A program made the translations under genes and the position numbers. 64,000 bases of DNA, taken from Haliea sp. (GTDB taxonomy: Bacteria; Pseudomonadota; Gammaproteobacteria; Pseudomonadales; Halieaceae). Positions 12,067 through 29,617 of this stretch are shown here, piece by piece. The stretch spans positions 3,881-67,880 of the forward strand of contig JANQUV010000101.1 of assembly GCA_030730585.1 (NCBI GenBank), given 5' to 3'. The notes beneath the pieces are model-generated. The model saw nothing but the letters and a program-made list of their open reading frames with translations, was not told the DNA's origin and did no database searches. Position 1 is the stretch's first letter, and the number at the start of each line of letters is the position of its first letter.

Positions 12067-13347
12067 GTGATTCCCATGGAAAATCAGATATTTGAATTAC
12101 AGTACGCGATGGACACCTTTTACTTTTTGGTGTGCGGCGCCCTCGTGATGTGGATGGCAGCCGGCTTCGCGATGCTGGAGGCGGGCCTCGTGCGCGCCAA
12201 GAACACGACAGAAATCTTAACCAAAAACGTCGCCTTGTATGCGATTGCTTGCACCATGTACCTGATATGCGGTTACCAGTTTATGTACGACGGTGGCTTC
12301 TTCTTGTCGGGCGTTACGACCGTGGCGCAAATGGATGATGCGGCGGTTGCCGCTGTGCTGGCGGATTCAGCAGAGGCTGGCTTCGGCGGCGATTCGGTGT
12401 ACTCCGGTGCCTCGGACTTCTTCTTCCAGGTGGTGTTTGTTGCCACTGCTATGTCGATCGTGTCAGGCGCGGTGGCTGAGCGGATGAAGTTGTGGGCCTT
12501 CCTGGCGTTTGCCGTAGTCATGACTGGCGTGATCTACCCGATTGAGGGTGGCTGGACTTGGGGTGGTAAGCCAGTTCCGTTTATTGGCGAACTGTCTTAT
12601 AGCGACTACGCAGGTTCAGGCATTGTACACCTGGCCGGTGCTGCCGCAGCGCTTGCAGGGGTTTTGCTGCTCGGGCCACGCAAGGGCAAGTATGCAGCCG
12701 ACGGTTCTGTAAAGGCCATACCGGGTGCGAATATGCCACTCGCAACGCTGGGTACCTTCATCTTGTGGATGGGTTGGTTTGGCTTTAACGGCGGCTCCAC
12801 CCTGAAGTTGGGTGGCATTTCAGTCGCCAACGAAGTGGCTAACGTGTTTTTGAACACCAACGCTGCCGCTGCAGGTGGTTTGATCGCGGCACTGCTGCTG
12901 TCACGCTTGATCTTCGGCAAAGCCGACCTGACCATGGCGCTTAACGGTGCATTGGCTGGCCTGGTGGCGATTACCGCAGAGCCTGCCGATCCCTCGCCGA
13001 TGTTGGCGATGATGATTGGTGCCATCGGTGGTGCGATTGTTGTGTTCAGCATCGTGGCCATGGACAAGATCAAAATTGACGATCCTGTCGGCGCCATCTC
13101 GGTCCACGGCGTGGTCGGTATCTGGGGTATCTTCGCAGTACTGCTGTCTGACCCCGATGCCACCTTTATGGGCCAGCTTGTCGGCACATTGGTCATCTTT
13201 GGCTGGGTCTTCGGTGCGAGCTTGATCACCTGGGGGATTATCAAAGCCGTCATGGGTGTGCGCGTCAGCGAAGAGGAAGAGTACGAAGGTGTGGATATCT
13301 CCGAATGTGGTATGGAAGCGTACCCGGAGTTCGTCGCACAGAAGTGA
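12067..13347 (+). CDS. amtB: Ammonium transporter AmtB
   Basis: 426 aa; DTFYFLVCGALVMWMAAGFAMLEAGLVRAKNTTEILTKN, DDPVGAISVHGVVGIWG. Confidence 0.97.
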   Translation: MIPMENQIFELQYAMDTFYFLVCGALVMWMAAGFAMLEAGLVRAKNTTEILTKNVALYAIACTMYLICGYQFMYDGGFFLSGVTTVAQMDDAAVAAVLADSAEAGFGGDSVYSGASDFFFQVVFVATAMSIVSGAVAERMKLWAFLAFAVVMTGVIYPIEGGWTWGGKPVPFIGELSYSDYAGSGIVHLAGAAAALAGVLLLGPRKGKYAADGSVKAIPGANMPLATLGTFILWMGWFGFNGGSTLKLGGISVANEVANVFLNTNAAAAGGLIAALLLSRLIFGKADLTMALNGALAGLVAITAEPADPSPMLAMMIGAIGGAIVVFSIVAMDKIKIDDPVGAISVHGVVGIWGIFAVLLSDPDATFMGQLVGTLVIFGWVFGASLITWGIIKAVMGVRVSEEEEYEGVDISECGMEAYPEFVAQK

Positions 13348-13419: not shown

Positions 13420-14451
13420 TTAAGCCGTGGCTTCTAGCAGCTCGGCAGCAGCCGCCAAAATGGTCGCAGTTTCTCCGGGTAGGCGCCCTGGCCCACCCGC
13501 AACATGCCCAAAATCAGAATTCAGCACACGACACTCCAGCCCCAGTGCTGCCGCATCGCGTGCAGCATCCACTGCCGTGAAATACAGGTCTGTGCTACTG
13601 GGCATGAGAATGCCAGGGCACTGCACACGGTGTGCGGTGCGATCCGCAGTAGCCCCCTTGCTGTCGGGGTCCAGCAGGTTTGCACTTTGCCATGTGCGCA
13701 GCTGAGCCAGCAGGTTATTCGCGTCCTGGTTGAGGTGATCTTCTATCCAGAACTGCAATAGGGCCTCGACTGAAGTAAAACCGAGTTGTCGATAAAGGCC
13801 ATTGCGAAAAAAGGCCTGACTGTAGGCCCAGCCGGCATACACGGTAGCGAACGCGCTTAGGCCTCGAATAGGGGGTTCACGGTAGTGGCCGCCGGCAAAC
13901 GCTGCATCGGCTGTGAGTGCGCTGGCAACGCCTTGCAAAAATACCTGATTGTGTGGATGGCAGTTGGCAGTCGCGCAAATCGCCAGCACGCTACCCACCT
14001 CGCGCGGGTAGTCGTAGGCCCACTGTAGTGACTGGATGCCGCCCATCGACCAGCCCATTACCAACCGCGGGTGGGCAGCCGCAAAGCGCGCGGCGAGCAG
14101 CTGATGCTGCGCACGCACGTTGTCGGCGATGCTCACCAAGGGAAAATGTGGCCCGGCCTGTGCGCCGCGTGTATTGCTCGGTGAGCTGGACTCTCCAGCA
14201 CCCAACAGGCAAGGAATGATCACGCAGTAGTCACCCGCGCCCAGCGGGCTGTTGGGGGCATCAACCCACGCGCGATTGCTGGCCCCAACGCCGCCGTAGT
14301 AGGTGGGTAGCAGCACCAGGTTATCTTTTGGTGCATTGAGTGCACCAAATTGGTGGTAACGCAGTATTGCGCCGCGCAGCACGTGGCCGCTGCCCAGTAC
14401 AAAATCCCCCAAGTGGAACGCAAGCTCCTGCCAATTTTCGTTATTTTTCAA
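13420..14451 (-). CDS. Alpha/beta-fold hydrolase, homoserine O-acetyltransferase (MetX)-like
   Basis: 343 aa; LRGAILRYHQFGALNAPKDNLVLLPTYYGGVGASNRAW, nucleophile elbow VMGWSMGGIQSLQWAYDYP, C-terminal FGHVAGGPG. Confidence 0.8.
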   Translation of the reverse strand: MKNNENWQELAFHLGDFVLGSGHVLRGAILRYHQFGALNAPKDNLVLLPTYYGGVGASNRAWVDAPNSPLGAGDYCVIIPCLLGAGESSSPSNTRGAQAGPHFPLVSIADNVRAQHQLLAARFAAAHPRLVMGWSMGGIQSLQWAYDYPREVGSVLAICATANCHPHNQVFLQGVASALTADAAFAGGHYREPPIRGLSAFATVYAGWAYSQAFFRNGLYRQLGFTSVEALLQFWIEDHLNQDANNLLAQLRTWQSANLLDPDSKGATADRTAHRVQCPGILMPSSTDLYFTAVDAARDAAALGLECRVLNSDFGHVAGGPGRLPGETATILAAAAELLEATA

Positions 14452-14486
14452 TGACTTGGTCCTTTTTTTCGGTGAGCGATATTAAA

Positions 14487-14512
14487 CATACATTCTGGCA
14501 TGTTTCTTGGAT
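14487..14512 (+). promoter_or_regulatory. Candidate sigma-54-like promoter overlapping an AcrR-like half-site (ACATACATTCTGGCATGTTTCTTGGA) upstream of glnT
   Basis: TGGCATG-N4-TTGG resembles -24/-12 (GG-N10-GG, one mismatch at -12); its ACATACATTCTGGCATG segment recurs at the desaturase-operon promoter. Confidence 0.5.
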
Positions 14513-14554
14513 GCTTCTGTGTAGCAAGAAACATTCCCGCACATGGAGATTCCT

Positions 14555-15907
14555 ATGGAAATTGAGCAGTTAAAGCAACGGTGCCTGGAGCAGGGCATAA
14601 AATACGGTATTGCCAGCTATGTGGATATTCACGGCGCAAGCAAGGGCAAGTTTGTACCCGTCGGCCATTTCAAGCAGATGTTCGCAGGTTCGGAGCTGTT
14701 TACCGGCGCCGCTCTAGACGGTGTGCCACAAGATATTTCCGATGACGAGGTTGCTGCGATGCCGGATATGGCCTCTATGCAGCAATGCCAGTGGAATCCG
14801 GAGCTGGCGTGGTTTGCCAGCGACCTGTATCTCAAGGGGCAACCCTTTGCGGCCTGTTCACGCAATATCCTCAAGCGGCAGTTAGCCAAGGCCGAGGCGA
14901 TGGGGTTCACCTTTAACCTGGGAATTGAGACCGAATTTTTTATTCTGAAAAAAGGGGCTGACGGCAAGCCGGTACCGTTTAGTGAGCGCGATACGCAGGG
15001 TAAGCCCTGTTATGACATCCCGACCATGATGGACAATATCGGGATTATTGATGAACTGGTGCAGGCGCTGACTGATATGGGCTGGGGGGTTTATTCCTTT
15101 GACCACGAAGATGCCAACGGCCAGTTTGAAATCGACTTCAACTATACCGATGCTCTCACAATGTCCGACCGCCTGGTCTATTTCCGGCTGCTGGCCAATG
15201 AGATTGCGCGTAAGCACGGCGCTTTCGCCAGCTTCATGCCCAAGCCCTTTGCCGATAGAACGGGCAGTGGTGCGCACTACAATATGTCCCTGGCAAGCCT
15301 GGATTCAGGGCAGAACCTGTTCGCTGTAGCGCCTGATGATGACCGCTACGGTTGCGGTGTGTCCGAACTCGCGTATCAGTTTATTGGCGGTGTGCTGCGC
15401 CACGCGAAGGCGATTAGCGCCGTGGTTGCGCCTACGGTCAATAGCTACAAACGCCTGGTGCGCCAAGGCAGCATGTCAGGTTCCACATGGGCACCGGTAT
15501 TCTGTTGCTACGGCAACAACAATCGTACCAACATGCTGCGCATTCCCAGTGCCGGTGCTCGTGTTGAATGTCGCGCGCCTGATATCGCCTGTAACCCGTA
15601 TCTGGGTGCTGCGCTGATGCTGGCCGCTGGCCTGCAAGGCATTGAGCAGGGCATTGACCCGGGCCTGCCGCATCGGGAAAACATGTATCGCTATAGCGAT
15701 GCGGATATCGCCAAGGCCGGTATCGAATGCTTGCCGAAAACGTTATCAGAAGCCACCGATGCGATTGCCTCTGATGAGCTGGCGCATGAGGTATTGGGCG
15801 CCGAAATGCACAAGGCCTTCATCGACTTCAAGCGCGCTGAGTGGGATAGCTATCACAACACCGTGTCTGAATGGGAAGTGGCACGTTATCTGCGACTGTT
15901 TGGTTAA
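14555..15907 (+). CDS. glnT: Type III glutamine synthetase-like ligase (GlnT / gamma-glutamylmethylamide synthetase-like)
   Basis: About 450 aa; KYGIASYVDIHGASKGKFVPVGHF, GIETEFFIL, GSGAHYNMSL, RIPSAGARVECRAPDIACNPYLGAALMLAAG; start at 14555 preferred because GGAGA lies upstream. Confidence 0.8.
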   Translation: MEIEQLKQRCLEQGIKYGIASYVDIHGASKGKFVPVGHFKQMFAGSELFTGAALDGVPQDISDDEVAAMPDMASMQQCQWNPELAWFASDLYLKGQPFAACSRNILKRQLAKAEAMGFTFNLGIETEFFILKKGADGKPVPFSERDTQGKPCYDIPTMMDNIGIIDELVQALTDMGWGVYSFDHEDANGQFEIDFNYTDALTMSDRLVYFRLLANEIARKHGAFASFMPKPFADRTGSGAHYNMSLASLDSGQNLFAVAPDDDRYGCGVSELAYQFIGGVLRHAKAISAVVAPTVNSYKRLVRQGSMSGSTWAPVFCCYGNNNRTNMLRIPSAGARVECRAPDIACNPYLGAALMLAAGLQGIEQGIDPGLPHRENMYRYSDADIAKAGIECLPKTLSEATDAIASDELAHEVLGAEMHKAFIDFKRAEWDSYHNTVSEWEVARYLRLFG

Positions 15908-15921
15908 AGGAGGATTGCGGC

Positions 15922-15945
15922 GGCGCTCTGCAGAGCGCCTTTTTT
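15922..15945 (+). terminator. Rho-independent terminator after glnT
   Basis: GGCGCTCTG/CAGAGCGCC palindrome followed by TTTTTT. Confidence 0.9.
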
Positions 15946-16024
15946 ACGCACGCTGCTACAACCGCGCGCTTGCCTTTGCTGTGCGTAATTATACACTGGG
16001 GCATCGAAGTGACCGGGGCACAAC

Positions 16025-16636
16025 ATGAGGCGAACCAAGGAGGATGCAGCGAAAACCCGCCAGAGTTTGGTGGATGCTGCGCTGAAACTCTTTGGCCAAC
16101 GCGGTTATAGCGGCACCACGCTGCGTTTGATTGCAGAGGAGGCAGGGTGCTCGCGGGGGCCAATCTATTGGCATTTCGCTAGCAAAGAAGAGCTCTTTGA
16201 AGAGATTTTGGCGTACTCGCAGCTGCCTCTGGAGCGTTTGGTCGCTCTGCACCATGAGGCCAGCGACCCCGAGGCGGCGGCTGCAGATTTCTCCCGACAA
16301 TGGCTTCGGATGCTGCTTGACGACAGCTACTTTCGCCAGTCTTTCGAGATCTTCCTGAATAAAACAGAGTTCACCGAGGCGGTGTCGAAAACCTTGGCCC
16401 GAGAGCGAGCTTTGACGGCATCGTTGCTGGCCACGTTCTCAGCCTGGGTTGATCGCTATCGTCTTGCGCAGGGTTTGCAGGGCGGAGTAAACAGTCGCAC
16501 GGCCGCCTTGTCGCTCTATGCCTATTTGATGGGTATTACGCAGAGCTGGTTGTTCGACCCGGGCATTGTCGACCTCGATAATAATCTTGATTTCTTTGTG
16601 GGGGAGTTTTTGCGTCTGCTACGCACAGTCGAGTGA
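16025..16636 (+). CDS. TetR family transcriptional regulator (AcrR/TtgR-like)
   Basis: 203 aa; RQSLVDAALKLFGQRGYSGTTLRLIAEEAGCSRGPIYWHFASKEELFEEI. Confidence 0.9.
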   Translation: MRRTKEDAAKTRQSLVDAALKLFGQRGYSGTTLRLIAEEAGCSRGPIYWHFASKEELFEEILAYSQLPLERLVALHHEASDPEAAAADFSRQWLRMLLDDSYFRQSFEIFLNKTEFTEAVSKTLARERALTASLLATFSAWVDRYRLAQGLQGGVNSRTAALSLYAYLMGITQSWLFDPGIVDLDNNLDFFVGEFLRLLRTVE

Positions 16637-17413
16637 CTGTGCGCGCATCATCTGGCGAATCTTTCGCTCCAGGTAACGGTACTCTTCAAAGTCGAGAATA
16701 GCGTCGCGGTCAGCGCTGCTTTTTTCCAGCCCTGGACGTATGGTTTCGAGAATTCGTCCTGGTTGAGTGCCCATAAAAAACACCACATCACCGAGATAGA
16801 GCGCCTCCTCAATGTCGTGTGACACCATGAGCACTGTGGTGCGTTCCTGGTGAACAATCTCCAGCAGCAGGCTCTGCATCTGCCATCGAGTTTCGGGGTC
16901 TAGCGCTCCGAATGGTTCGTCCATCAGCAACAAGGAAGGATTGCTTGCCAAGCTGCGGGCGATGGCAACGCGCTGCTGCATCCCCCCAGACAGCTGGTGA
17001 GGATAGGCGCGCTCGAAGCCGTTGAGTTTCACGGCTTTGATAAAATAGGGAACGACACCCTCGCGCAAGCTTAACGCTTCCCCGCGGGCTTTCAGCCCGA
17101 AGGCAACGTTTTCCTCAACCGTCAACCAGGGAAATGAGCTGTAGTTTTGGAATACCATGCCCCGGTCTACGCCTGGGCCAAAAACCTGCATGCCATCGAC
17201 AGCAATGCTGCCTTGATCATGAGTTTCCAGCCCCGCGATGATCCGCAGCAAAGTGGACTTGCCGCAGCCTGAAGGCCCCAGCAGTATGCCCACGCTGGTT
17301 TTTTGCAGTTCGAAACTGATGTCGTCCAGGGCTTTTAAAGACTGCCCCGAGCGCAGCAAAAACTGCTTGCTGACGCCCGAGACGGTAAGCCCGCTAGTGG
17401 CGGTTGTGGTCAT
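16619..17413 (-). CDS. ABC transporter ATP-binding protein (NitT/TauT/SsuB family)
   Basis: Walker [10 protein letters not shown], signature [16 protein letters not shown], Walker [13 protein letters not shown]; start [11 protein letters not shown] at 17413. Confidence 0.92.
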
Positions 17414-18435
17414 TTTTTCAGCGCCGCGGCCAGGGGGGTGGTGTCTACACCGGCTGACATGGGCATCGCTTTGTCGATGAAGCCGAACTTCAGCCACCAG
17501 TCGGTGGTGACGTCCCAGTGGTTTTGCATGCCGTCAGCGATAATGCCCAAGGGCAGTTCACCCGGTATCAGACCCATAAAGACAGCGGCTTGCTCGCGGT
17601 CAAAGACGAAGATGCCACCCTTGAGAATTTCGCCGGTGCTGCCCAACACCTGTTCGACATCAGCCACCTCAAATTGCAGGCCATCGGCGATAATCTGGTT
17701 GGCTTCGGTGGTATTTGTTTTCCAGAACTCGACGGCGTTAAAGTAGGCGCGCGTCAGTTTTGCCGCGTCCTCAGGCCGCTGTTCCAAAAAGGCGGTGCTC
17801 ATGTACAGCGCATCACCGAGCATGGCGGTGGTGATGTATTTTTCTTCCGTAGAATCGGCTGCGACGGTTGCACCGGGCATGGCTTCAAGTACCTGCGAGC
17901 CATAGGGCTCCCAGAACTCTGCCGCGGCTGCAGTGCCACCCACCATGGCACCTACTGCATCGTCCATGATCAGGTTGGTGAAGGTGACTTCTTCAATCCC
18001 CACACCGTTGTCGGTCAGCCATTCCGCCATGAAGATTTGGGTAAGCCCACCTTCGAGCACGGCGACCGTCTTGCCTTTGAGTTGCTCGGCGCTGCTGATA
18101 CCCGGCGCCAGAATGATCTTGTCGGTACCATAAGACGGGTTGGTATAAGTCACCAGTTTGATGCCGACGTCTTTGTCAGCGGCGATGGGGCCGTATTCCG
18201 CCGTGCTTGAAGAGGCGTGTAATTCTCCGGCAGTCATCAGTGCAAAGCTTTGATACGGGTCTTCGATAATGCTGATATCCAGTTCCAGGCCTTCGGCGAG
18301 TCCTTTCTCTTTAGCGATAAACCAGAAGCCGTAACCCGGCCAGGAAAACAGTGACAGTTTCACGGGTTCGGCCGCGTGTGTGGCTGACCCTAGCGCGAGG
18401 GCCAGAATAGCAATGCCAGATCGAATGTAGCGCAT
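17410..18435 (-). CDS. ABC transporter substrate-binding protein (NitT/TauT family, SsuA/NMT1-like)
   Basis: Signal peptide MRYIRSGIAILALALGSATHAAEPVKLSLFSWPGYGFWFIAKEKGL; 4-bp overlap with the ATPase gene; start at 18435. Confidence 0.88.
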   Translation of the reverse strand: MRYIRSGIAILALALGSATHAAEPVKLSLFSWPGYGFWFIAKEKGLAEGLELDISIIEDPYQSFALMTAGELHASSSTAEYGPIAADKDVGIKLVTYTNPSYGTDKIILAPGISSAEQLKGKTVAVLEGGLTQIFMAEWLTDNGVGIEEVTFTNLIMDDAVGAMVGGTAAAAEFWEPYGSQVLEAMPGATVAADSTEEKYITTAMLGDALYMSTAFLEQRPEDAAKLTRAYFNAVEFWKTNTTEANQIIADGLQFEVADVEQVLGSTGEILKGGIFVFDREQAAVFMGLIPGELPLGIIADGMQNHWDVTTDWWLKFGFIDKAMPMSAGVDTTPLAAALKK

Positions 18436-18463
18436 GGTAGTGCTCCTTTTACAGTGAGTGCTG

Positions 18464-19306
18464 CTAGTGGGACTCGAGGTAACGAAACGCAGTGCGGTGC
18501 AGCAGTTTGAACAATGCGTCGAAAAACAGGCCAAGGAGGCCGATGACCAAAATGCCGGCCATGATGTCGTCGATGTGTACGAAGCGCCTGGCGCGCATCA
18601 TCATGGCGCCAATACCATCGGTGGCGGCGACAATTTCCGCAATCACCAGGTAGGTCCAGCTCACCGCCAGCATCTGGCGAAGCACGTCCAGATATCCAGG
18701 CAGGCTTGAGCGCAGGGTTACGGATATGAGTATTTGCGGCGCACGCAGGCCCAGCGTGCGCGCCGTTTCCGTGTACACCTTGGGCACTTGGCGGGTCACA
18801 TCAGCCAACATGATGATTAAGAAGAACAACACGCCTAGCACCAGTAGTGCGATTTTTTGCTCATCGCCAGTGCCCAGCCACATGAGTAACAGTGGAATAA
18901 AAGCTGGTGCAGGCAGGTAGCGGAAAGCCCCCGCGACAGGCCCGAGGACGCGTTCTATGGGGCGGTAGGCGCCCATCAGCAGCCCCAGCGGCAGGGCGAT
19001 GGTCACGGCGATAGAAAAACTGATGAGAATGCGCTTTACACTGGCCCAGATGTCACTGGCGAAATCTTTTTCGGTGAGCAGCTCGTACAGGCTAAGAAAG
19101 ACTTTTTCTGGCCCGGGGAACAGGCGTGGCGGCGCAAGTTCAGCGTGTGCTGCCAGGTACCAGCCACCCAGAAACAAAAACCAGCCCAAGGCGCCCAGCA
19201 CAGTGCGAGAGCCGAGGATGGCGGCAACGTTGCCAGAGACATTGCCAGCGGCATTGCCCTCAGCACTCATCGAGGGGGCATCACCTTTGTTGATCGCTTC
19301 AGCCAT
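18464..19306 (-). CDS. ABC transporter permease (NitT/TauT family, SsuC-like)
   Basis: 280 aa multi-TM; TARTLGLRAPQILISVTLRSSLPGYLDVLRQMLAVSWTYLVIAEIVAATDGIG. Confidence 0.9.
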   Translation of the reverse strand: MAEAINKGDAPSMSAEGNAAGNVSGNVAAILGSRTVLGALGWFLFLGGWYLAAHAELAPPRLFPGPEKVFLSLYELLTEKDFASDIWASVKRILISFSIAVTIALPLGLLMGAYRPIERVLGPVAGAFRYLPAPAFIPLLLMWLGTGDEQKIALLVLGVLFFLIIMLADVTRQVPKVYTETARTLGLRAPQILISVTLRSSLPGYLDVLRQMLAVSWTYLVIAEIVAATDGIGAMMMRARRFVHIDDIMAGILVIGLLGLFFDALFKLLHRTAFRYLESH

Positions 19307-19312
19307 GGCCGG

Positions 19313-20326
19313 TTAAAACGCAGTCAGAAAACTGAGTGCGTCTACGCCCACGGCGCGGCCCTCTTTGAGTGACGTTTTTACTTCATCGGCGCCGTACTCC
19401 TCGGCGTAGATGCGTGACACACGGTGTTTGTGAAAGGCCTTGGCCTGCATTAGAAAGCCGAGTGTCTGTTGCTCAACTCCGGGGTACATTGTCTGGTGCA
19501 GCTCGGGCAGGCGGTACCAGCCAAGAGTGGGTTTTTCGTGGTGTGCATTGTGGTAGCAGAAGTTCAGCACCAGCAGGTTGATGGCAGGGAATCGGCCGGA
19601 TAGTAAATTGCTGTAGGTGTTGCGCTGTTCGTATTCGGCGTCACCGCGGTGTGGAAACACGGTGTCCTTTTCATCGAGGTTGAAGATCACTTCGTAGTTG
19701 TGCTGGTAGCAATCCATGAAACGCAGTGCCGTTAGCAGCAGCAGCTGGGACAGTGTGTAGAGCAGAATTGCCGCTGGACTAATGACCAAAACCAGGGCTA
19801 GCAGAGCGCCGCGCACCATCAGTACGCGCAGAACTCGCCCACGTTGCTCGCGCTTCGACTCCATCACCCAGGGCGCGATAACCAACATGGTATGCATCAT
19901 GATTTCAACGGCAGGTATATAGGCCCATTCCGCTGCTTTAACTACTTTAGCGATTGTCGGGCGGCTGCGCAGGTAGCTGCGGTAATCCCAAACCACCGGG
20001 TCGTAGTTGTCGACGTGGTGACGCATGTGCTTGTAGCGGATGTCTTCAAAGCGCCCATAGCAGCTGCCGATAACCCAGTTCAGGACTTTGCCCAACGCGG
20101 CATTGGCCTTTGCCGACATAAACACAGCGTTGTGGCCACAGTCATGCAATAGGTACGCGGCGATGACCATGCTGTGCGCAACGGCGATAACGCCCACTGC
20201 GTTGAGTGCTGCGTTGTTCTGAAACAGTGCCAGCCAGCCGCCGATGTAGGCGATAGTGATGTAGGCGAGGACCAACACGGTGTAGTGTGCCCCAGCGGGG
20301 TCGCGTAGTTTAAAGAAATCACGCAT
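19313..20326 (-). CDS. Fatty acid desaturase/hydroxylase family membrane di-iron protein
   Basis: Three histidine boxes: HDCGH (LLHDCGHNAVF), HMRHH (YKHMRHHVDN), HNAHH (FCYHNAHHEKPTLGWYRLPELH); multiple TM segments; ATG at 20326 overlaps the upstream gene's stop. Confidence 0.85.
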   Translation of the reverse strand: MRDFFKLRDPAGAHYTVLVLAYITIAYIGGWLALFQNNAALNAVGVIAVAHSMVIAAYLLHDCGHNAVFMSAKANAALGKVLNWVIGSCYGRFEDIRYKHMRHHVDNYDPVVWDYRSYLRSRPTIAKVVKAAEWAYIPAVEIMMHTMLVIAPWVMESKREQRGRVLRVLMVRGALLALVLVISPAAILLYTLSQLLLLTALRFMDCYQHNYEVIFNLDEKDTVFPHRGDAEYEQRNTYSNLLSGRFPAINLLVLNFCYHNAHHEKPTLGWYRLPELHQTMYPGVEQQTLGFLMQAKAFHKHRVSRIYAEEYGADEVKTSLKEGRAVGVDALSFLTAF

Positions 20327-21191
20327 GAGTAGCCTCCTTGTGGGCAGGTGATTGTGACCAGTGCGCGAAATGTTCTTGTTCCCGTGCGCCAATCCAGCGG
20401 TTGAGTTCCCAGAGGTCGGCTATAGGTGCGTTGGTAAAGGGGAGGTGGTGCAGGTAGCCGTCGGGCCCAAACTCGGGCGTCATGGTGGTTTCTTGATATC
20501 CGCGTGCTTGCTGTGCCGACCAAACTGCCTCCCAGCAGCGTTGGTGGCTGGCCAATGCCTCAGCGTATTCTGGAGCACCGGGGTGCGGCACTTGGGGCCC
20601 CTGGTCGTAACCGACACGTGAGTGCACGTGATGCGCGTGCTGTGCCGCCAGCGTGATCGCGTCCCACTCGCTATCCATCAGGCGTTCGGACACCACCACC
20701 CAGTGGCTGAAGTCACAGGTAATTTTGATGTCGGGCAACTGTTCCAGTATTGCCACGGTATTCCACGGGCAGTAGAAGCTGCGCCCGCGGTGCGTTTCAA
20801 AGGAGCACAAAACATCGTGACTTGCCGCGATGTCCATGGCGGCTTTGAAAAAATCCACGCTGGTTTGAATTGGCCAGGCGTCGCAGCCGCCCATTACGTT
20901 GACAAAGCGAGGCCCCAGCGGCTTTCCCAGCACGATTTGTGCTTCCAGATCTTCGAGGTGTTCACGGACGGTCGCTCGTCGACGAGGCACGTAGGAGCCT
21001 GCGGTGCAGATTTCCTGCACCCAGTCCAATGCATGGGCTTGGAGTGCCGCCGCCAATGCAGAGTAGTGCGCCGGGTCGGGGTGTTTCGCGGGCGCCTCTA
21101 ACCCTGAGAAGCCGGCCTCGATGACGAGCTGTGCGGCTTCTTCGATGCTACCGGTGTGACCCCACAGGGTTTTGAAGGTGCGTAATTGCAT
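20319..21191 (-). CDS. Sugar phosphate isomerase/epimerase-like TIM-barrel protein
   Basis: 290 aa; SIEEAAQLVIEAGFSGLEAPAKHPD, FVNVMGGCDAW, SFETHRGRSFYCPWNT, ITCDFSHWVVVSERL, HVHSRVG. Confidence 0.85.
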   Translation of the reverse strand: MQLRTFKTLWGHTGSIEEAAQLVIEAGFSGLEAPAKHPDPAHYSALAAALQAHALDWVQEICTAGSYVPRRRATVREHLEDLEAQIVLGKPLGPRFVNVMGGCDAWPIQTSVDFFKAAMDIAASHDVLCSFETHRGRSFYCPWNTVAILEQLPDIKITCDFSHWVVVSERLMDSEWDAITLAAQHAHHVHSRVGYDQGPQVPHPGAPEYAEALASHQRCWEAVWSAQQARGYQETTMTPEFGPDGYLHHLPFTNAPIADLWELNRWIGAREQEHFAHWSQSPAHKEATHA

Positions 21192-21227
21192 GGTGTTGTC
21201 CTGAGATTGGCTTGCCGGTTACGAAGG

Positions 21228-21243
21228 AGCAACTTCCATGCCA
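21228..21243 (-). promoter_or_regulatory. Sigma-54 promoter TGGCATGGAAGTTGCT for the isomerase-desaturase-ABC operon
   Basis: Minus strand: GG-N10-GC, near-consensus TGGCAYG-N4-TTGCT; about 37 bp upstream of the ATG at 21191. Confidence 0.75.
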
Positions 21244-21257
21244 GAATGTATGTATAA
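21237..21257 (-). promoter_or_regulatory. Copy of the shared 21-bp operator-like motif TTATACATACATTCTGGCATG
   Basis: 20/21 identical to TTAAACATACATTCTGGCATG upstream of glnT, same orientation relative to its gene. Confidence 0.6.
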
Positions 21258-21606: not shown

Positions 21607-21654
21607 TATACAACTTGTGTCCGTACTCCTGACATGACGCGACACAAGAATACC

Positions 21655-21765
21655 AATAGAGCGCTAGGGTTCCGGCCGCATTGAACGCGGTGTCTGGTCC
21701 GAGAGCACTCGACCTTTCAGTGAAGGGTTACACGGCGGGATAAAAGCCCGGGAGAACTGAAGGCG
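21655..21765 (+). ncRNA. Guanidine-I (ykkC) riboswitch
   Basis: Conserved motifs CTAGGGTTCCG ... CTGGTCCGAGAG ... ACACGGCGGGATAAAAGCCCGGGAGA in the leader of a urea carboxylase/UAAP operon. Confidence 0.93.
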
Positions 21766-21832
21766 AAATGCCGGGGGTACTCTGTGATTCGTCAACGTGA
21801 TTAACCGAAGAAACGCAACTGAGAGGTCCGCC

Positions 21833-22873
21833 ATGAAACGTCTTTCCATTTTTGTACTCTTCTTGATGCTGTCATCGACAGCGTCGGCTCGTGACAGTTT
21901 TAAAATCTGCTGGTCGATTTATGTTGGCTGGGTTCCCTGGGCCTACGGTGCCGATCAGGGCATTGTGAAAAAGTGGGCTGACAAGTACGACATCGACATC
22001 GAGGTTGTGCAAATCAACGATTACATCGAGTCCATCAACCAATACACCATGGGCGAATTCGACGCCTGCACCATGACCAATATGGATGCGTTGACCATTC
22101 CCGCAGCGGGTGGCGTTGACAGCACTGCACTGATTGTTGGTGATTTTTCCAACGGTAATGATGGCATCGTGCTCAAGGGTAAGGAGTCGCTGGAAGACAT
22201 TAAGGGCCAGAGTGTGAATCTGGTGGAGCTGAGTGTGTCGCATTACCTGCTTGCACGCGGGCTGGAGAGTGTGGGTTTAACTGAGCGTGACGTGCAGGTA
22301 GTCAATACCTCCGATGCCGACATGGTCGCTGTGTATGCCACGCCGGGCGTGACCGCCGTCGCCACCTGGAATCCTTTGTTAAGTGAAGTGGCCGGTATGC
22401 CTGACAGCCACCTTGTCTTTGACTCTTCGCAGATACCAGGCGAAGTCATTGACCTGTTGATCATCAACACTGAAACGTTGGCTGAGAACCCGGCGTTGGG
22501 CAAAGCACTGACTGGCGCCTGGTACGAAATCATGGCGCACATGAACGGCGGTGATGCGCAAGCCGAGGCCGCCAAGACCTTCCTGGCTGAGCTTTCCGGT
22601 ACAGATCTGGTGGGCTTTGAGTCGCAGCTGGCGAGCACGGAAATGTTTTACACCCCTGCTGCCGCCATGGCGCTCGCCAACAGTGAGCAACTAAAAGCCA
22701 CCATGCAAACGGTAGCGGAGTTCTCTTACCAGCATGGTTTGCTGGGTGAGGGCGCGCCTGATGCCACGTTCATCGGTGTGCAAACGCCGGCAGGTGTGTT
22801 CGGAGACAGCAACAATATCAAGTTGCGCTTTGATCCGACCTTTATGCAGATGGCGTTGGACGGCGAACTCTAA
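21833..22873 (+). CDS. Urea carboxylase-associated (guanidine) ABC transporter substrate-binding protein
   Basis: Signal peptide then FKICWSIYVGWVPWAYGADQGIVKKWADKYDIDIEVVQINDYIESINQYTMGEFDACTMTNMDAL. Confidence 0.92.
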   Translation: MKRLSIFVLFLMLSSTASARDSFKICWSIYVGWVPWAYGADQGIVKKWADKYDIDIEVVQINDYIESINQYTMGEFDACTMTNMDALTIPAAGGVDSTALIVGDFSNGNDGIVLKGKESLEDIKGQSVNLVELSVSHYLLARGLESVGLTERDVQVVNTSDADMVAVYATPGVTAVATWNPLLSEVAGMPDSHLVFDSSQIPGEVIDLLIINTETLAENPALGKALTGAWYEIMAHMNGGDAQAEAAKTFLAELSGTDLVGFESQLASTEMFYTPAAAMALANSEQLKATMQTVAEFSYQHGLLGEGAPDATFIGVQTPAGVFGDSNNIKLRFDPTFMQMALDGEL

Positions 22874-22933
22874 CCCAAGGACTGAACCCGGGGGTGGCAC
22901 ACTCCCGACGTTTTTTCCCTCTAAGGACGGCCC

Positions 22934-23752
22934 ATGAAACGCTTGATCAACCAGACACCTTCCCCAGTGTTGCGTGTGGTGCTTGGCCTGTTGCCCTTTG
23001 TGCTGTTGGTCTTGCTTTACACCTATGCCTCGGATGCCCGGCTGGCGGAAAACCCGGCAGACAAGCTGTTGCCAAGCTTTGGCCAGATCGGTGACGCGAT
23101 TCAGCGTATGGCCTTTGAGCCGAGCAAGCGCAGCGGCGACTATTTGGTTTGGGAAGATACACTGGCCAGCCTGACCCGACTAGGTTTGGGGGTGTTAATC
23201 GCCGCGACTCTGGGCCTTGCCTTGGGCTTGTTTACTGGCGCTCTGCCGCTGGTGTCGGCTTCTGCCAGCCCCTTGTTGACAGTCATTTCCCTAATTCCAC
23301 CGCTGGCCATTTTGCCCGTGCTGTTTATTGTTTTTGGTTTGGGTGAGTTATCGAAGGTGGCGCTGATTGCGATTGGCATTACACCTTTTATTGCCCGCGA
23401 CATTCAGCGGCGCACGCAGGAAATTCCCTATGAGCAGTTGGTCAAGGCGCAAACTCTGGGTGCGAATACCAGCCAGATTATTTGTCGTGTGCTGCTGCCC
23501 CAGCTGATGCCGCGGTTGCTGGACGCGGTGCGTCTGTCCTTGGGTGCGGGTTGGTTGTTTCTCATCGCGGCAGAGGCCATCGCTGCCACCGAAGGCTTGG
23601 GCTATCGCATCTTTCTGGTACGTCGTTATATGGCTATGGACGTGATTCTGCCTTATGTCGCCTGGATTACGCTGCTTGCGTTTGTGATCGATGCCTCTTT
23701 GGCAGCGCTCAGCCGTCGCCTGTTTCCCTGGCACGGCCAAGGAGGCCACTAA
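22934..23752 (+). CDS. ABC transporter permease (guanidine/urea carboxylase-associated)
   Basis: 272 aa, multi-TM; KAQTLGANTSQIICRVLLPQLMPRLLDAVRLSLGAGWLFLIAAEAIAATEGLGYRIF. Confidence 0.92.
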   Translation: MKRLINQTPSPVLRVVLGLLPFVLLVLLYTYASDARLAENPADKLLPSFGQIGDAIQRMAFEPSKRSGDYLVWEDTLASLTRLGLGVLIAATLGLALGLFTGALPLVSASASPLLTVISLIPPLAILPVLFIVFGLGELSKVALIAIGITPFIARDIQRRTQEIPYEQLVKAQTLGANTSQIICRVLLPQLMPRLLDAVRLSLGAGWLFLIAAEAIAATEGLGYRIFLVRRYMAMDVILPYVAWITLLAFVIDASLAALSRRLFPWHGQGGH

Positions 23753-24546
23753 TGATTGAGGCGCGCAATGTATGGAAAAAATACGGCGACAAAGTCGTGT
23801 TGGAAAGAATCAATCTGCAGGTCAAAGAGGGCGAGTTTGTCACTCTGGTGGGTACCTCCGGTTGTGGCAAGAGCACCTTCCTCAAAATGCTTTTGGGCAC
23901 AGAGTCGGCTAGCAGCGGAGAATTGCTGCTGCACGGCAAGCCGGTACCGGGTGAGCCTGGCCCGGATCGCGGCATCGTATTTCAGCAGTACTCGGTGTTT
24001 CCACACCTTAGCGTACTGCAGAATGTGATGGCGGCGCGCGGGTTTGCGGGCCGCAATATGACCGGATTACTGTTTGGCCGTGCGCGACGCGAGGCCTACC
24101 AAGAGGCACTCGCGCTGTTGGAGGAAGTTGGCCTGGCGCATGCGCAAGCGCTCTATCCCGCAGAGCTGTCGGGAGGCATGCGGCAACGCCTGGCCATTGC
24201 TCAGGCGCTGTTGGGGCGCCCAGGCATTCTTTTGCTCGACGAGCCCTTCGGTGCGCTAGACCCCGGCATTCGGGCCGACATGCATGAGCTGGTGTTGCGC
24301 CTGTGGCGGCAATATCGGCTCACGGTTTTTTTAGTTACCCATGACTTAAAGGAAGGCTTTTATCTGGGCACTCGGCTGTGGGTGTTCGACAAGACGCGAC
24401 ACGACCCCCAGGCGCCGGATGCTTACGGTGCCACCATTACTTACGATCTGCCGGTAGGCAAGGTTGATCGGGAAACCCTGACCGAAATTGACCGCGATCT
24501 AGCGCGTACCGCAAACCAGATGGAACGAGACCATGAAGCCCTTTGA
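23752..24546 (+). CDS. ABC transporter ATP-binding protein (guanidine/urea carboxylase-associated)
   Basis: Walker A GTSGCGKST, signature [32 protein letters not shown] overlap with the permease gene; track start 23482 is too long. Confidence 0.93.
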   Translation: MIEARNVWKKYGDKVVLERINLQVKEGEFVTLVGTSGCGKSTFLKMLLGTESASSGELLLHGKPVPGEPGPDRGIVFQQYSVFPHLSVLQNVMAARGFAGRNMTGLLFGRARREAYQEALALLEEVGLAHAQALYPAELSGGMRQRLAIAQALLGRPGILLLDEPFGALDPGIRADMHELVLRLWRQYRLTVFLVTHDLKEGFYLGTRLWVFDKTRHDPQAPDAYGATITYDLPVGKVDRETLTEIDRDLARTANQMERDHEAL

Positions 24547-25249
24547 ATATTCAACTGAGATCGCCCCGGGCGGGCATTGGTCGGTGCGCCTGCGCAAGGG
24601 CACGCGCATGCAGATCACGGATACCGCCGGTAACGCCAACCTGGGCATGTTGTTTTACAACCCCGAGAATCTGCTCGAACGCTATAACGCGCCCGACACA
24701 TTAAAGTGTCAGCACACCTTCAAGTTGACGCGCGGCCATTGCCTGTATTCGGATATGGGTCGGATTTTTGCCTCGATTGTTGAGGATTCTTTGGGTTGGC
24801 ACGAAACGGTCTGTGGCAATTTACGGGCGCAACAGACTGCCGAACGATATGGCGTGCGCAACTACCAGCACGACCGCAATGACTGGCATCAGAACGGCCA
24901 CGATGCGTTCCTGGTGGAGTTAGCGAAATACGGTTTGGGCGAAGCGGATATGGCTGCCAACATCAATTGGTTTAGCCGTGTGGCCACTAATGAGGCCGGT
25001 AAGTTGCTGCTGGTGGATGGCCACAGCACGCCGGGTAGCCAAGTCACCCTGCGTTTTGAAATGGACACCCTGGTCCTACTCCACGCTTGCCCTCATCCGC
25101 TGAGTGAGGCGGCGCTGTATCCGCGTAAGCCAGTGCATATCAGCTTGGGTGTGTCTCCGCCAGTAGCCGATGACGACGCCTGCCTGAATCACTGCGAGGA
25201 AAATCGCCGGGGTTTTCGCAACACAATGCTCTACCACCTGGGACGCTGA
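24533..25249 (+). CDS. Urea amidolyase-associated protein UAAP1 (DUF1989; carboxyguanidine deiminase subunit)
   Basis: 238 aa; [70 protein letters not shown]. Confidence 0.9.
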
Positions 25250-25259
25250 GGAGCCTGCC

Positions 25260-25901
25260 ATGTTAATTGAAAGTGACCGTCAGCCCGAGCAGGCCAGCAG
25301 TCGCACCATTGTTGCCGCGGGTGATTACTATCTGGGCTCAGTGCAGTCTGGCCAGACGCTGCGCATTCTGGATATTGAAGGCAACCAAGCAGCCGATACG
25401 CTATTTTACTCTGCGCAAGATCCCGCTGAACGTTACAGCGTGACCGACACCATCCGTGAGCAGGGTAATGTCTACTTAACAACGGGTTCTGTACTGCGCT
25501 CTCTGCGCAACACCCCGATGCTGGAAATTGTTGCGGATACCTGTGGCCGTCACGACACCCTGGGCGGTGCCTGTGCCAGCGAAAGTAATACCGTGCGTTA
25601 CGACCTGGAAAAGCGCTGTATGCACTCCTGCCGGGATAGCTGGATGCTGGCTATTACCGAGCACCCGGAATACGGCATTGGCAAGCGTGACATTGGCCAC
25701 AACATCAACTTTTTCATGAACGTACCGGTTACCGAGGCGGGTGGTTTGACCTTTGAAGATGGCATTTCAGCACCCGGAAAATATGTGGAGCTGACGGCCC
25801 TGATGGACGTGTTCGTGCTGGTTTCGAACTGCCCGCAGTTGAATAACCCCTGCAATGGCTTCAACCCTACGCCGATTGAAGTGTTGGTTTGGGATAACTG
25901 A
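25260..25901 (+). CDS. Urea amidolyase-associated protein UAAP2 (DUF1989; carboxyguanidine deiminase subunit)
   Basis: 213 aa; [70 protein letters not shown]. Confidence 0.9.
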
Positions 25902-25972
25902 ATCACTTAATCCCTGTGTGGACGGCCACAACAGGCAACGACAGGACGGGACGGCCCGCATCAGGTTTCTCC

Positions 25973-28900
25973 ATGTTTGACACAGTACTTGTAGCTAACC
26001 GCGGGGCGATTGCGACCCGCATCATGCGTACGCTCAAGCGGCTGGGTGTTCGCTCAGTGGCGGTTTACGCCGATTGCGATGCCGACAGCCTGCATGTCCG
26101 CCATGCGGATGAAGCCTTCTGCTTGGGTGAGGGCGGCGCTGCCGATACCTATCTTAATATGGAGCGTATTCTGCAAGTGGCGCAGGAGTCGGGTGCCCAG
26201 GCGATTCATCCCGGTTACGGGTTTCTCAGCGAGAACGCGGCCTTCGTAGAGCGCTGCGAGGCGGCGGGCATCGCGTTTATTGGCCCTACCGCAGAGCAGA
26301 TGCGGGCCTTTGGTTTGAAGCATCGCGCGCGTGAGCTCGCCGAGGCTGCCGGTGTGCCCTTGCTGCCCGGCTCCGGGTTGCTAGCAAGCTTGTCTGACGC
26401 GAGTAGTGAAGCCGCGCGCATTGGTTACCCGGTGATGCTCAAGAGTACTGCGGGTGGTGGCGGGATTGGTATGCAGCTATGCCACGACGCGCAGGAGCTG
26501 GCCAGCGCATTTGATTCCGTGCGGCGCCTGGGCGCCAACAATTTTGCCGATGACAGTGTGTTCCTGGAAAAATTTATTGCCTGTGCCCGACACATCGAGG
26601 TGCAGATTGTGGGTGACGGCCAGGGCACTGCGCTGGCCTTGGGTGAGCGCGATTGCTCCAGCCAGCGCCGTAATCAAAAAGTGGTGGAGGAGTGCCCGGC
26701 CCCGAATTTGTCGGCGACGATTCGGGAGGCGTTGCACGCCACCGCTGAGCGCTTGCTTGCCAGTATCGATTACCGCAATGCGGGCACAGTGGAATTCATT
26801 TACGACGCCGACAGTGCCGACTTTTACTTTCTTGAAGTGAACACCCGTTTGCAGGTTGAGCACGGTGTAACTGAGGAAGTCTACGGCGTCGACCTGGTGG
26901 AATGGATGTTGCGCATAGCCGCGGGCCAAGCTCCAGATCTCAATGCGGAGCGGGCGGCGCTGGCACCCTGCGGGCATGCCATTCAAGTACGTGTATACGC
27001 CGAGGATCCCTGGCTCGATTTTCAGCCTAGTGCCGGTTTACTGAGCTGGGTGAGTTTCCCTGCCGGAGAGGGAATACGTATTGATCACTGGATTGAATCG
27101 GGTATTGAAGTGCCGTCGTTCTTCGACCCGATGCTGGCGAAAGTGATTGTCCATGCGCAGGACCGGGCCGCTGCGTTGGCCAAACTGCAGCATATACTGG
27201 ATGCAGTGGAGCTTTATGGTAGCGAGACCAATCTAGATTATTTACGCGCCTTGAGCCGCGATAACACCCTGGCGCAAGGTGAAGTGACCACGCGCTACCT
27301 GAATCGCTTCAGCTACCGCCCCGCACGTGTGGACGTTCTTCACGGCGGCACACAAACGACCCTGCAGGATTACCCGGGCCGCCAAGGGCATTGGGACGTG
27401 GGTGTGCCGCCCTCGGGGCCATTCGATAGCTACTCGTTTCGGCTTGCCAATCGTCTCTTGGGTAATGCAGCAGACGCAACAGCGCTGGAAATCACCTTGC
27501 AAGGCCCGACGCTACGCTTTGCAGTGGCGACGCAGTTGGTCATCACCGGAGCAGTTATTGAGGCCACTATAGATGGCCAGACGGTTCCCATGTGGCAGCT
27601 GTTTTCGGTACAGGCCGGCCAGACACTGCAGCTGGGGCGCGTGCGGGATGCAGGCGCGCGTGCCTATCTCGCCGTGTGCGGGGGCATTCAGTGCCCTCAG
27701 TACCTCGGCTCACGGTCAACGTTTACGCTAGGCCTGTTCGGCGGACACAACGGACGGGCGCTGCGTACCGGTGATGTGTTGCGGCTAGCCGAGACTGCAA
27801 TTCCTGTTCCAAAATCAGCGCCAGAGCGCACACTCCCGCCCGAGCTGTTGCCGACGATTAGCCAGCAGTGGCAGCTGCGGGTGATTTACGGGCCTCACGG
27901 CGCCCCGGACTTTTTTACCGCAAATGATATAGAAGCGTTCTTTGCCGCAGACTGGGAGATTCACTATAACTCCAGTCGCACAGGGGTGCGTTTGATTGGC
28001 CCTAAACCACAGTGGGCCCGCGCTGATGGTGGCGAGGCGGGCCTGCATCCGTCCAATATTCACGACAACGGTTATGCCTTCGGTACGGTCGATTTCACCG
28101 GCGATATGCCGGTAATTCTGGGGCCCGATGGGCCGTCACTGGGTGGCTTCGTTTGCCCCGCCACGGTGATCAGCGCGGATTTGTGGAAACTGGGGCAGTT
28201 GCGTGCAGGTGATCGGGTCAAATTTGTTGCGGTTAGCCTGGAGCAGGCCGTAGCACTGGAGTCTGCGCAAGAGCAGGCGATAGAGTCGCTCGCGGTTGTG
28301 CCCTGCGCGTGGCAGCCCATTGTGCCTGAGTCGCCGATTCTGGCGCGCTTCCCGGCATCGGTGTTCGGTGATGAAATTGTCTGCCGCAGCGCCGGCGACC
28401 ACTTTTTACTGGTTGAATATGGCGAACAGGTGTTGGATATCCGTTTGCGCTTCCGTGCCCACGCCTTGATGCAATGGCTGGAGCAGCATCCGCTGCCGGG
28501 CTTGCGTGAGCTGATTCCGGGTATTCGATCCCTGCAGATTCATTTTGATAGCCAGGTGCTTAGCCACGCAGAATTGCTGCAGCACCTGGAGAGTGGTGAG
28601 CGTGCGCTGGCCACGCAGCTTGCCCAGCTGAGCGTGCCATCACGCATTGTGCACATTCCACTTTCCTGGGACGACGAGGCATGCCAACTGGCAGTTGAGA
28701 AGTATGCGCAGTCTGTACGCAAGGATGCCCCCTGGTGCCCGAGCAATCTGGAATTTATTCGGCGCATCAACGGGCTTGATGATATTGAGGCGGTCAAGCG
28801 TATCGTCTTTGAAGCCTCTTATTTGGTGATGGGGCTGGGAGACGTCTATCTCGGCGCACCGGTGGCAACCCCTGTGGATCCGCGTCACCGGCTGGTCACC

Positions 28901-29617
28901 ACCAAGTACAACCCGGCGCGCACCTGGACTGCAGAAAACTCCGTGGGCATCGGCGGTTCCTACCTGTGTGTCTACGGCATGGAGGGCCCGGGGGGTTATC
29001 AGTTTGTAGGGCGTACCTTGCAAATGTGGAACCGCTATCGGCGTACGGTAGAATTCGAGCAGCCATGGCTGCTGCGGTTCTTCGACCAGATCCGGTTTTA
29101 CGAAGTGAGCCACGACGAGCTGCAGCAGATACGCCGCGATTTCCCCCAAGGCCGCTATCCGCTCACCGTTGAGCAGAGCCAATTCTCACTGGCGGACTAC
29201 GAACAGTTTGTGGCTAACAACACTGCCGATATTGCCCGGTTTCGTGAACACCGCCAGCGAGCGTTCGGGGCAGAGCTGGAACGTTGGCATGCCAACGGCC
29301 AGTTTAACTTTGCCGAGCAAGAAGTGCCGCCCAGTGTCTCTCAGCAGAGTTGGCCCGATACGGCAACGGTGGTGGATAGCCCGGTTTCAGGCAGCATCTG
29401 GCAGATGCAGGTGCAAGCAGGTGATGCAGTGCGCCGTGGTGACACCTTGGTCATTCTTGAGTCGATGAAGATGGAAATTGCGGTGCAGGCCCCCTGTGAT
29501 GCCACCGTCACCCAGCTGTTGTTGGCACCCGGGGCGCGCGTTGCCCCGGGGCAAGCACTGGTGGTGCTTGAGGACGCGGAGACGGAAACAGTGCAAGAGG
29601 GGGGCGTTCAGCGATGA
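25973..29617 (+). CDS. Urea/guanidine carboxylase (biotin-dependent, multidomain)
   Basis: About 1214 aa: biotin carboxylase ([21 protein letters not shown]), KipA/KipI-like domains ([31 protein letters not shown]), BCCP with ESMKMEI. Confidence 0.95.
   Translation: [1214 protein letters not shown]

Follow-up and report, generated by a model that had tools for sequence, protein, structure and literature searches.

What does the compact gene block beside a guanidine carboxylase operon in Haliea sp. do for its host? The window analysed here is a stretch of 64,000 nucleotides from contig JANQUV010000101.1 (assembly GCA_030730585.1, positions 3,881 to 67,880, forward strand); the closest named relatives found for the host are Haliea alexandrii and Haliea salexigens (family Halieaceae). 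The block comprises eight genes, among them a xylose-isomerase-like TIM barrel (ISO), a membrane di-iron oxygenase (DES) and a NitT/TauT-type ATP-binding cassette (ABC) importer. The comparative evidence makes it probable that the block scavenges nitrogen from an N-methylated guanidine, most likely methylguanidine, with DES and ISO as non-homologous replacements of the published enzymes MgdH and MgdL.

One enzyme pair for methylguanidine breakdown has been described, from halophiles (PMC12508155, 2025). Methylguanidine is first hydroxylated by the 2-oxoglutarate dioxygenase MgdH; the product, N-(hydroxymethyl)guanidine, is then cleaved to guanidine and formaldehyde by MgdL, which is reported to be specific for it. 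Both were characterised in Vreelandella boliviensis (published MgdL residues, D49 and R51); the genes are part of a guanidine carboxylase operon that carries riboswitches of both the Guanidine-I and the Guanidine-II class, and methylguanidine raises the levels of formaldehyde-detoxification proteins (PMC12508155). The text of that paper mentions neither a desaturase nor an isomerase.

The genes of the block are as follows.

20319-21191, minus: ISO, xylose-isomerase-like TIM barrel (PF01261), proposed N-(hydroxymethyl)guanidine lyase, MgdL analogue
19313-20326, minus: DES, PF00487 membrane di-iron oxygenase, proposed methylguanidine hydroxylase, MgdH analogue
18464-19306, minus: NitT/TauT-type ABC permease (PF00528), by family models
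17410-18435, minus: periplasmic substrate-binding protein (SBP), NMT1/SsuA type, likely start ATG 18435
16619-17413, minus: ABC ATPase, likely start ATG 17413
16025-16636, plus: TetR/AcrR-type regulator, convergent with the operon, by family models
14543-15907, plus: GlnT, type III glutamine synthetase-like/GmaS-like ligase (TIGR03105), altered amine pocket S185, D198
13420-14451, minus: MetX-like alpha/beta hydrolase, nearest the PRK07581 subfamily, by family models

Open reading frame calls and family-model searches find these genes where a first-pass annotation, made from the sequence alone, had placed them and in the families it had named (isomerase-like, desaturase, NitT/TauT ABC transporter, TetR, GlnT, MetX-like). 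The minus-strand operon runs ISO-DES-permease-SBP-ATPase with overlaps or gaps of a few to about 30 bases: ISO and DES overlap by 8 bases, DES and the permease lie 6 bases apart, and SBP and ATPase overlap by about 4. By family models the importer set is complete (NMT1/SsuA-type binding protein, binding-protein-dependent permease and ATPase). A 605-base gap separates the ISO-DES block from the plus-strand guanidine carboxylase operon.

21653-21756, plus: Guanidine-I riboswitch of the divergent guanidine carboxylase operon (95.4 bits, gathering 63)
21797-31434, plus: guanidine carboxylase operon, with SBP, permease, ATPase, CgdA/UAAP1 (24533), CgdB/UAAP2 (25260), carboxylase (TIGR02712; 25916) and allophanate hydrolase (29614)

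Recurrence, riboswitch linkage and partner swapping

Neighbourhood conservation had been set beforehand as the test by which the nitrogen-acquisition reading could fail, and the block is conserved. At least nine loci (L041, L057, L061, L063, L064, L065, L067, L070 and L071; L-numbers denote compared loci and G-numbers genomes) have all eight genes in unchanged order; their hosts are Halioglobus, Alloalcanivorax, an Oleiphilaceae bacterium and other gammaproteobacteria. The guanidine operon is not adjacent in those nine, and this intact recurrence away from it shows that the neighbourhood did not arise by chance. Two reduced forms occur. In Methylophaga (L059, L060, L062) the locus has ISO-DES and TetR and lacks transporter, GlnT and hydrolase; in a Thiogranum metagenome-assembled genome (L069) ISO-DES stands by itself. 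Together, the full and the reduced forms indicate that the block is a unit and ISO-DES its core. A copper amine oxidase gene divergent from ISO-DES (L060 7204-9249) was seen only in Methylophaga and was not used as evidence.

Homologues of DES and ISO are linked to guanidine riboswitches and guanidine carboxylase genes. In L051 and L053 a Guanidine-II riboswitch stands immediately upstream of the start of DES. L048, L053, L144, L145 and L148 each have a Guanidine-I riboswitch at the head of an operon that contains DES. L053 is one gene run of importer, creatininase-family protein, GlnT, DES, ISO, CgdAB, carboxylase and allophanate hydrolase. The formaldehyde genes FrmA-FrmB immediately precede ISO-DES in L047.

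All four pairings of an oxygenase (MgdH-type dioxygenase or DES) with a second protein (MgdL or ISO) were found, each in loci with guanidine riboswitches. MgdH precedes MgdL in L109 and L110, matching the published operon (PMC12508155); L109 has D-L-R at residues 49-51 and both riboswitches at the published places. In Paraburkholderia sprentiae (L075) ISO is paired with the MgdH-type dioxygenase and has CgdAB and carboxylase as neighbours; this locus contains three guanidine riboswitches, none immediately before ISO. Further such pairs are in L076, L077 and L128-L132. DES is found with MgdL in L144 and L145, and with ISO in the window and L051-L053. L051 (DES-ISO) and L144 (DES-MgdL) come from the same bacterial family, and the tree groups their DES proteins as a sister pair (support 98/94). 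The D-L-R motif, which holds the published D49 and R51, is kept in 5/5 MgdL homologues, and these match no Pfam family. In the ISO tree, dioxygenase-paired ISOs fall between the riboswitch-linked DES-ISOs and the clade of the window. Such swapping of partners indicates that ISO occupies the place of MgdL and DES that of MgdH.

Every tested DES-ISO genome except G045 (that of the divergent locus L047) holds guanidine carboxylase genes, against a background of about 8%. CgdB is present in 15/15 tested genomes from the homologous-locus set, in 6/6 ISO-positive versus 17/268 ISO-negative class genomes (Fisher p 2e-7), in 7/7 relatives with DES of at least 75% identity versus 4/51 others (1e-6) and in 7/7 further ISO genomes (G598, an apparent duplicate of the L070 genome, being left out); these counts ignore relatedness but span many genera. 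G319 (L148), with DES and no ISO, has Guanidine-I before its DES operon, yet no CgdB was found there.

Several observations adjoin these loci. A sister clade of DES, represented by L042-L046 in other Halieaceae and their relatives, lies adjacent or close to a different TIM barrel (4/5 loci; about 24% identical to ISO); CgdB was not found in these genomes, and the clade probably acts on another methylated or alkylated compound. An acyl-homoserine-lactone-lactonase-type protein of the metallo-beta-lactamase fold is found repeatedly alongside DES, ISO or MgdL, for the most part in loci with guanidine riboswitches (L052 8802-9584, L061 17910-18692, L075 9238-10020, L144, L145, L148), and is not in the block of the window; it may hydrolyse a pathway compound. 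Creatininase-family hydrolases occur in the same guanidine-linked operons (L052 11566-12336, L053 12870-13622, L145 5604-6389, L148 10497-11672) and perhaps tie them to methylguanidine derived from creatinine.

Enzyme families and proposed reactions

DES matches PF00487 at 109 bits (cut-off 29.7) and no other Pfam family, and its three His boxes are invariant among 20 homologues. The best solved matches of its AlphaFold2 model (predicted local distance difference test score, pLDDT, 90) are an AlkB-type hydroxylase and two chloroplast motor complex chains, all weakly significant; a sequence search of solved structures (PDB) with the DES profile gave no match, and single-sequence matches to lytic transglycosylases were judged spurious. 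DES resembles the membrane di-iron FADS/AlkB-type oxygenases in His boxes, topology and fold; those enzymes act on lipids or alkanes, whereas the substrate proposed for DES is a small cation. MgdH, in contrast, is a soluble 2-oxoglutarate/Fe dioxygenase. MgdH-type proteins carry DIOX_N and 2OG-FeII_Oxy (PF14226/PF03171), neither of which was found in DES, and membership of DES in the MgdH family was ruled out.

ISO scores above the PF01261 cut-off, and its AlphaFold2 model (pLDDT 89) is a TIM barrel that matches TIM-barrel epimerases; its conserved residues include E132, D160, H163, H188 and E240. MgdL is a beta-barrel without a Pfam family; ISO is of another fold family, falls outside the D49/R51 sequence family and was ruled out as an MgdL homologue. 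For ISO the first-pass annotation had proposed an isomerase, and a lyase is the more likely role.

The likeness to MgdH/MgdL is therefore one of arrangement: an oxygenase with a lyase-type partner, linkage of the homologues to guanidine carboxylase genes and guanidine riboswitches, and partners that are interchangeable in related genomes. What sets the block of the window apart is the lack of a riboswitch and the presence of an importer, GlnT, hydrolase, TetR and sigma-54 promoter of its own. The earlier statement that no characterised pathway has this composition is literally true, and merely so, since the unrelated MgdH and MgdL perform the same two steps (PMC12508155). As far as the papers searched show, the chemistry is known and DES and ISO, as enzymes proposed for it, are new.

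In the proposed route the NitT/TauT importer would take up methylguanidine, DES would hydroxylate the N-methyl group to give the hemiaminal N-(hydroxymethyl)guanidine, and ISO would cleave this to guanidine and formaldehyde. Guanidine would then yield ammonium via the adjacent guanidine carboxylase, CgdAB and allophanate hydrolase, a pathway that lies next door in the window, acts on guanidine itself and, unlike the block, has no demethylating enzymes. The block would be transcribed by RNA polymerase with sigma-54 under nitrogen limitation, and TetR probably represses it. We regard as reasonably likely that this is a second, independently evolved methylguanidine demethylase, composed of a membrane di-iron hydroxylase and a TIM-barrel hemiaminal lyase, interchangeable with MgdH/MgdL and served by a dedicated importer. 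The observations of the first-pass annotation are confirmed and its interpretation is partly supported: comparative evidence favours a nitrogen-acquisition block that is conserved and under sigma-54 control, in which the oxygenase and the TIM barrel oxidise and cleave an imported compound, and a substituted guanidine, which it had suggested, fits that evidence best.

If so, a different enzyme pair performs methylguanidine breakdown in Haliea, Alloalcanivorax, Methylophaga and others, and methylated guanidines would supply nitrogen more widely in the sea than is known, and perhaps one-carbon units to Methylophaga. FADS-like enzymes would gain a new class of small, water-soluble substrates, N-(hydroxymethyl)guanidine cleavage would have a second protein family, and the pathway would be a rare case in which both steps were swapped independently.

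Substrate and rival readings

Family-level matches to PF00487 and PF01261 alone, and folds like those of AlkB/desaturase-type proteins and sugar epimerases, would suit an ordinary lipid or carotenoid desaturase or hydroxylase (DES) and a sugar isomerase (ISO) in an incidental neighbourhood. A lipid desaturase had been named as the finding that would count against a nitrogen role, and it is unlikely because guanidine riboswitches stand directly upstream of DES homologues. No named lipid-desaturase model reaches its cut-off for DES, and the repeated linkage to riboswitches and carboxylase genes, with the swapping with MgdH and MgdL, rules these readings out to the point where we give them a negligible chance. 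A route that starts with glutamylation is very improbable: GlnT would conjugate an amine or guanidine, DES would oxidise the conjugate and the MetX-like or a creatininase-type hydrolase would free the product, on the model of glutamylated-amine routes such as Puu and that for aniline. GlnT and the MetX-like gene keep their order in the full block. GlnT passes TIGR03105 (560 versus cut-off 470 bits) and keeps the GmaS catalytic residues Asp177, Glu186 and Arg312, while the ammonium-binding Asp50' of glutamine synthetase is absent; it differs from GmaS at two methylamine-pocket residues, Gln175 being replaced by Ser and Asn188 by Asp (RhGmaS numbering), changes fixed in 10/10 homologues that add a conserved Asp to the pocket. 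Yet DES-ISO pairs occur without GlnT in Methylophaga, L051, L047 and L069, and DES with MgdL and no GlnT in L144. GlnT is therefore dispensable and was ruled out as the central nitrogen-capture step. The earlier proposal that it captures a released amine or ammonium is not needed, since the product handed on is likely guanidine, to the adjoining guanidine carboxylase; capture of an amine or ammonium is perhaps its role.

The main doubt about methylguanidine demethylation concerns the substrate, and several points weigh against it. The ISO operon of the window is without a riboswitch of its own; an Rfam search of eight loci, mostly window-type, found no riboswitch, and none stands before ISO in the window or in loci of its type. 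CgdAB was not found in G045, the genome of L047, which is the sole locus with formaldehyde genes, and GlnT and the MetX-like protein are left unexplained. Haliea genomes, that of the window included, carry an MgdH-type gene (55-57% identical). On contig C131 of the genome of the window (L116, 225-2232) the gene after this dioxygenase encodes a remote MgdL homologue (26% identical) with D-L-R intact, and genes for a binding protein of the guanidine type and for an EamA transporter come next. This is a probable second demethylase set, so that the block there could serve another alkylguanidine. Pseudomonas-like genomes pair ISO-dioxygenase with an amino-acid-type importer, and others with guanidinobutyrase; no riboswitches were found at these loci, and ISO may accordingly handle other hydroxyalkyl-guanidines. 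The MgdH-type gene with its remote MgdL homologue and these ISO pairings, together with the block's own binding protein, which differs from the one in the guanidine operon, favour the same chemistry on a guanidine other than methylguanidine (N,N-dimethylguanidine, a longer alkylguanidine or a guanidino acid), giving guanidine and an aldehyde, which we consider unlikely though worth keeping in view. However, an MgdH-type gene above about 40% identity is absent from 21/27 distinct DES-ISO genomes searched, where DES-ISO could fill the MgdH role, and close MgdH orthologues (at least 54%) occur among them only in six Haliea genomes. DES also pairs with homologues of MgdL, whose reported specificity is for N-(hydroxymethyl)guanidine (PMC12508155).

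The loci with ISO, an MgdH-type dioxygenase and an amino-acid-type ABC importer are L129-L132, L054 and L077; some of them also have guanidinobutyrase, class II aldolase and hydroxyacid dehydrogenase. They are likely a related route for a guanidino acid.

Promoter, probable operator and neighbouring genes

The regulatory elements of the block are these.

21228-21244, minus: sigma-54 type -24/-12 promoter of the ISO-DES operon, CTGGCATGGAAGTTGCT
21237-21254, minus: TACATACATTCTGGCATG element overlapping the -24 box, possible TetR half-site
14484-14505, plus: inverted repeat AAACATACATTCTGGCATGTTT upstream of GlnT, probable TetR operator

The promoter stands 36 bases upstream of the ISO ATG. Sigma-54 promoter matches number 4 in the window versus 2.3 expected by chance, unexceptional alone; since a single-window match is not rare, the evidence lies in conservation. 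In 15/21 homologous loci a strict match to TGGCA[TC]-N5-TTGC (-24/-12) is placed 29 to 82 bases upstream of ISO, versus 0.005 expected from shuffled upstreams, an expectation that overstates promoter conservation because the 21 loci are partly related. rpoN is present in the genome of the window, and the sigma-54 promoter proposed ahead of ISO is well supported on these grounds. NtrC sites in the window show no excess over chance.

Upstream of GlnT, where a related promoter had been proposed, an inverted repeat is the better reading of the element: AAACATRC-N6-GCATGTTT, which 9/10 homologous loci retain with small differences and which also takes the variant form ATACATGC-N6-GCATGTAT. Its -12 element is poor and its form palindromic, and a plain sigma-54 promoter is disfavoured. 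Its conservation fits a TetR operator, which to judge from the sequence is probably its main function.

The label of the MetX-like gene stands as an alpha/beta hydrolase and falls as MetX itself, all MetX cut-offs being missed. The protein is nearest the PRK07581 subfamily, just below cut-off (305 versus 332), and scores 95 bits against a cut-off of 500 for the MetX homoserine acetyltransferase model TIGR01392. A homologue also adjoins DES in L146. A defence search gave no match to anti-phage defence. An ammonium transporter gene (window 12067-13347) adjoins the block and is kept in other Haliea loci.

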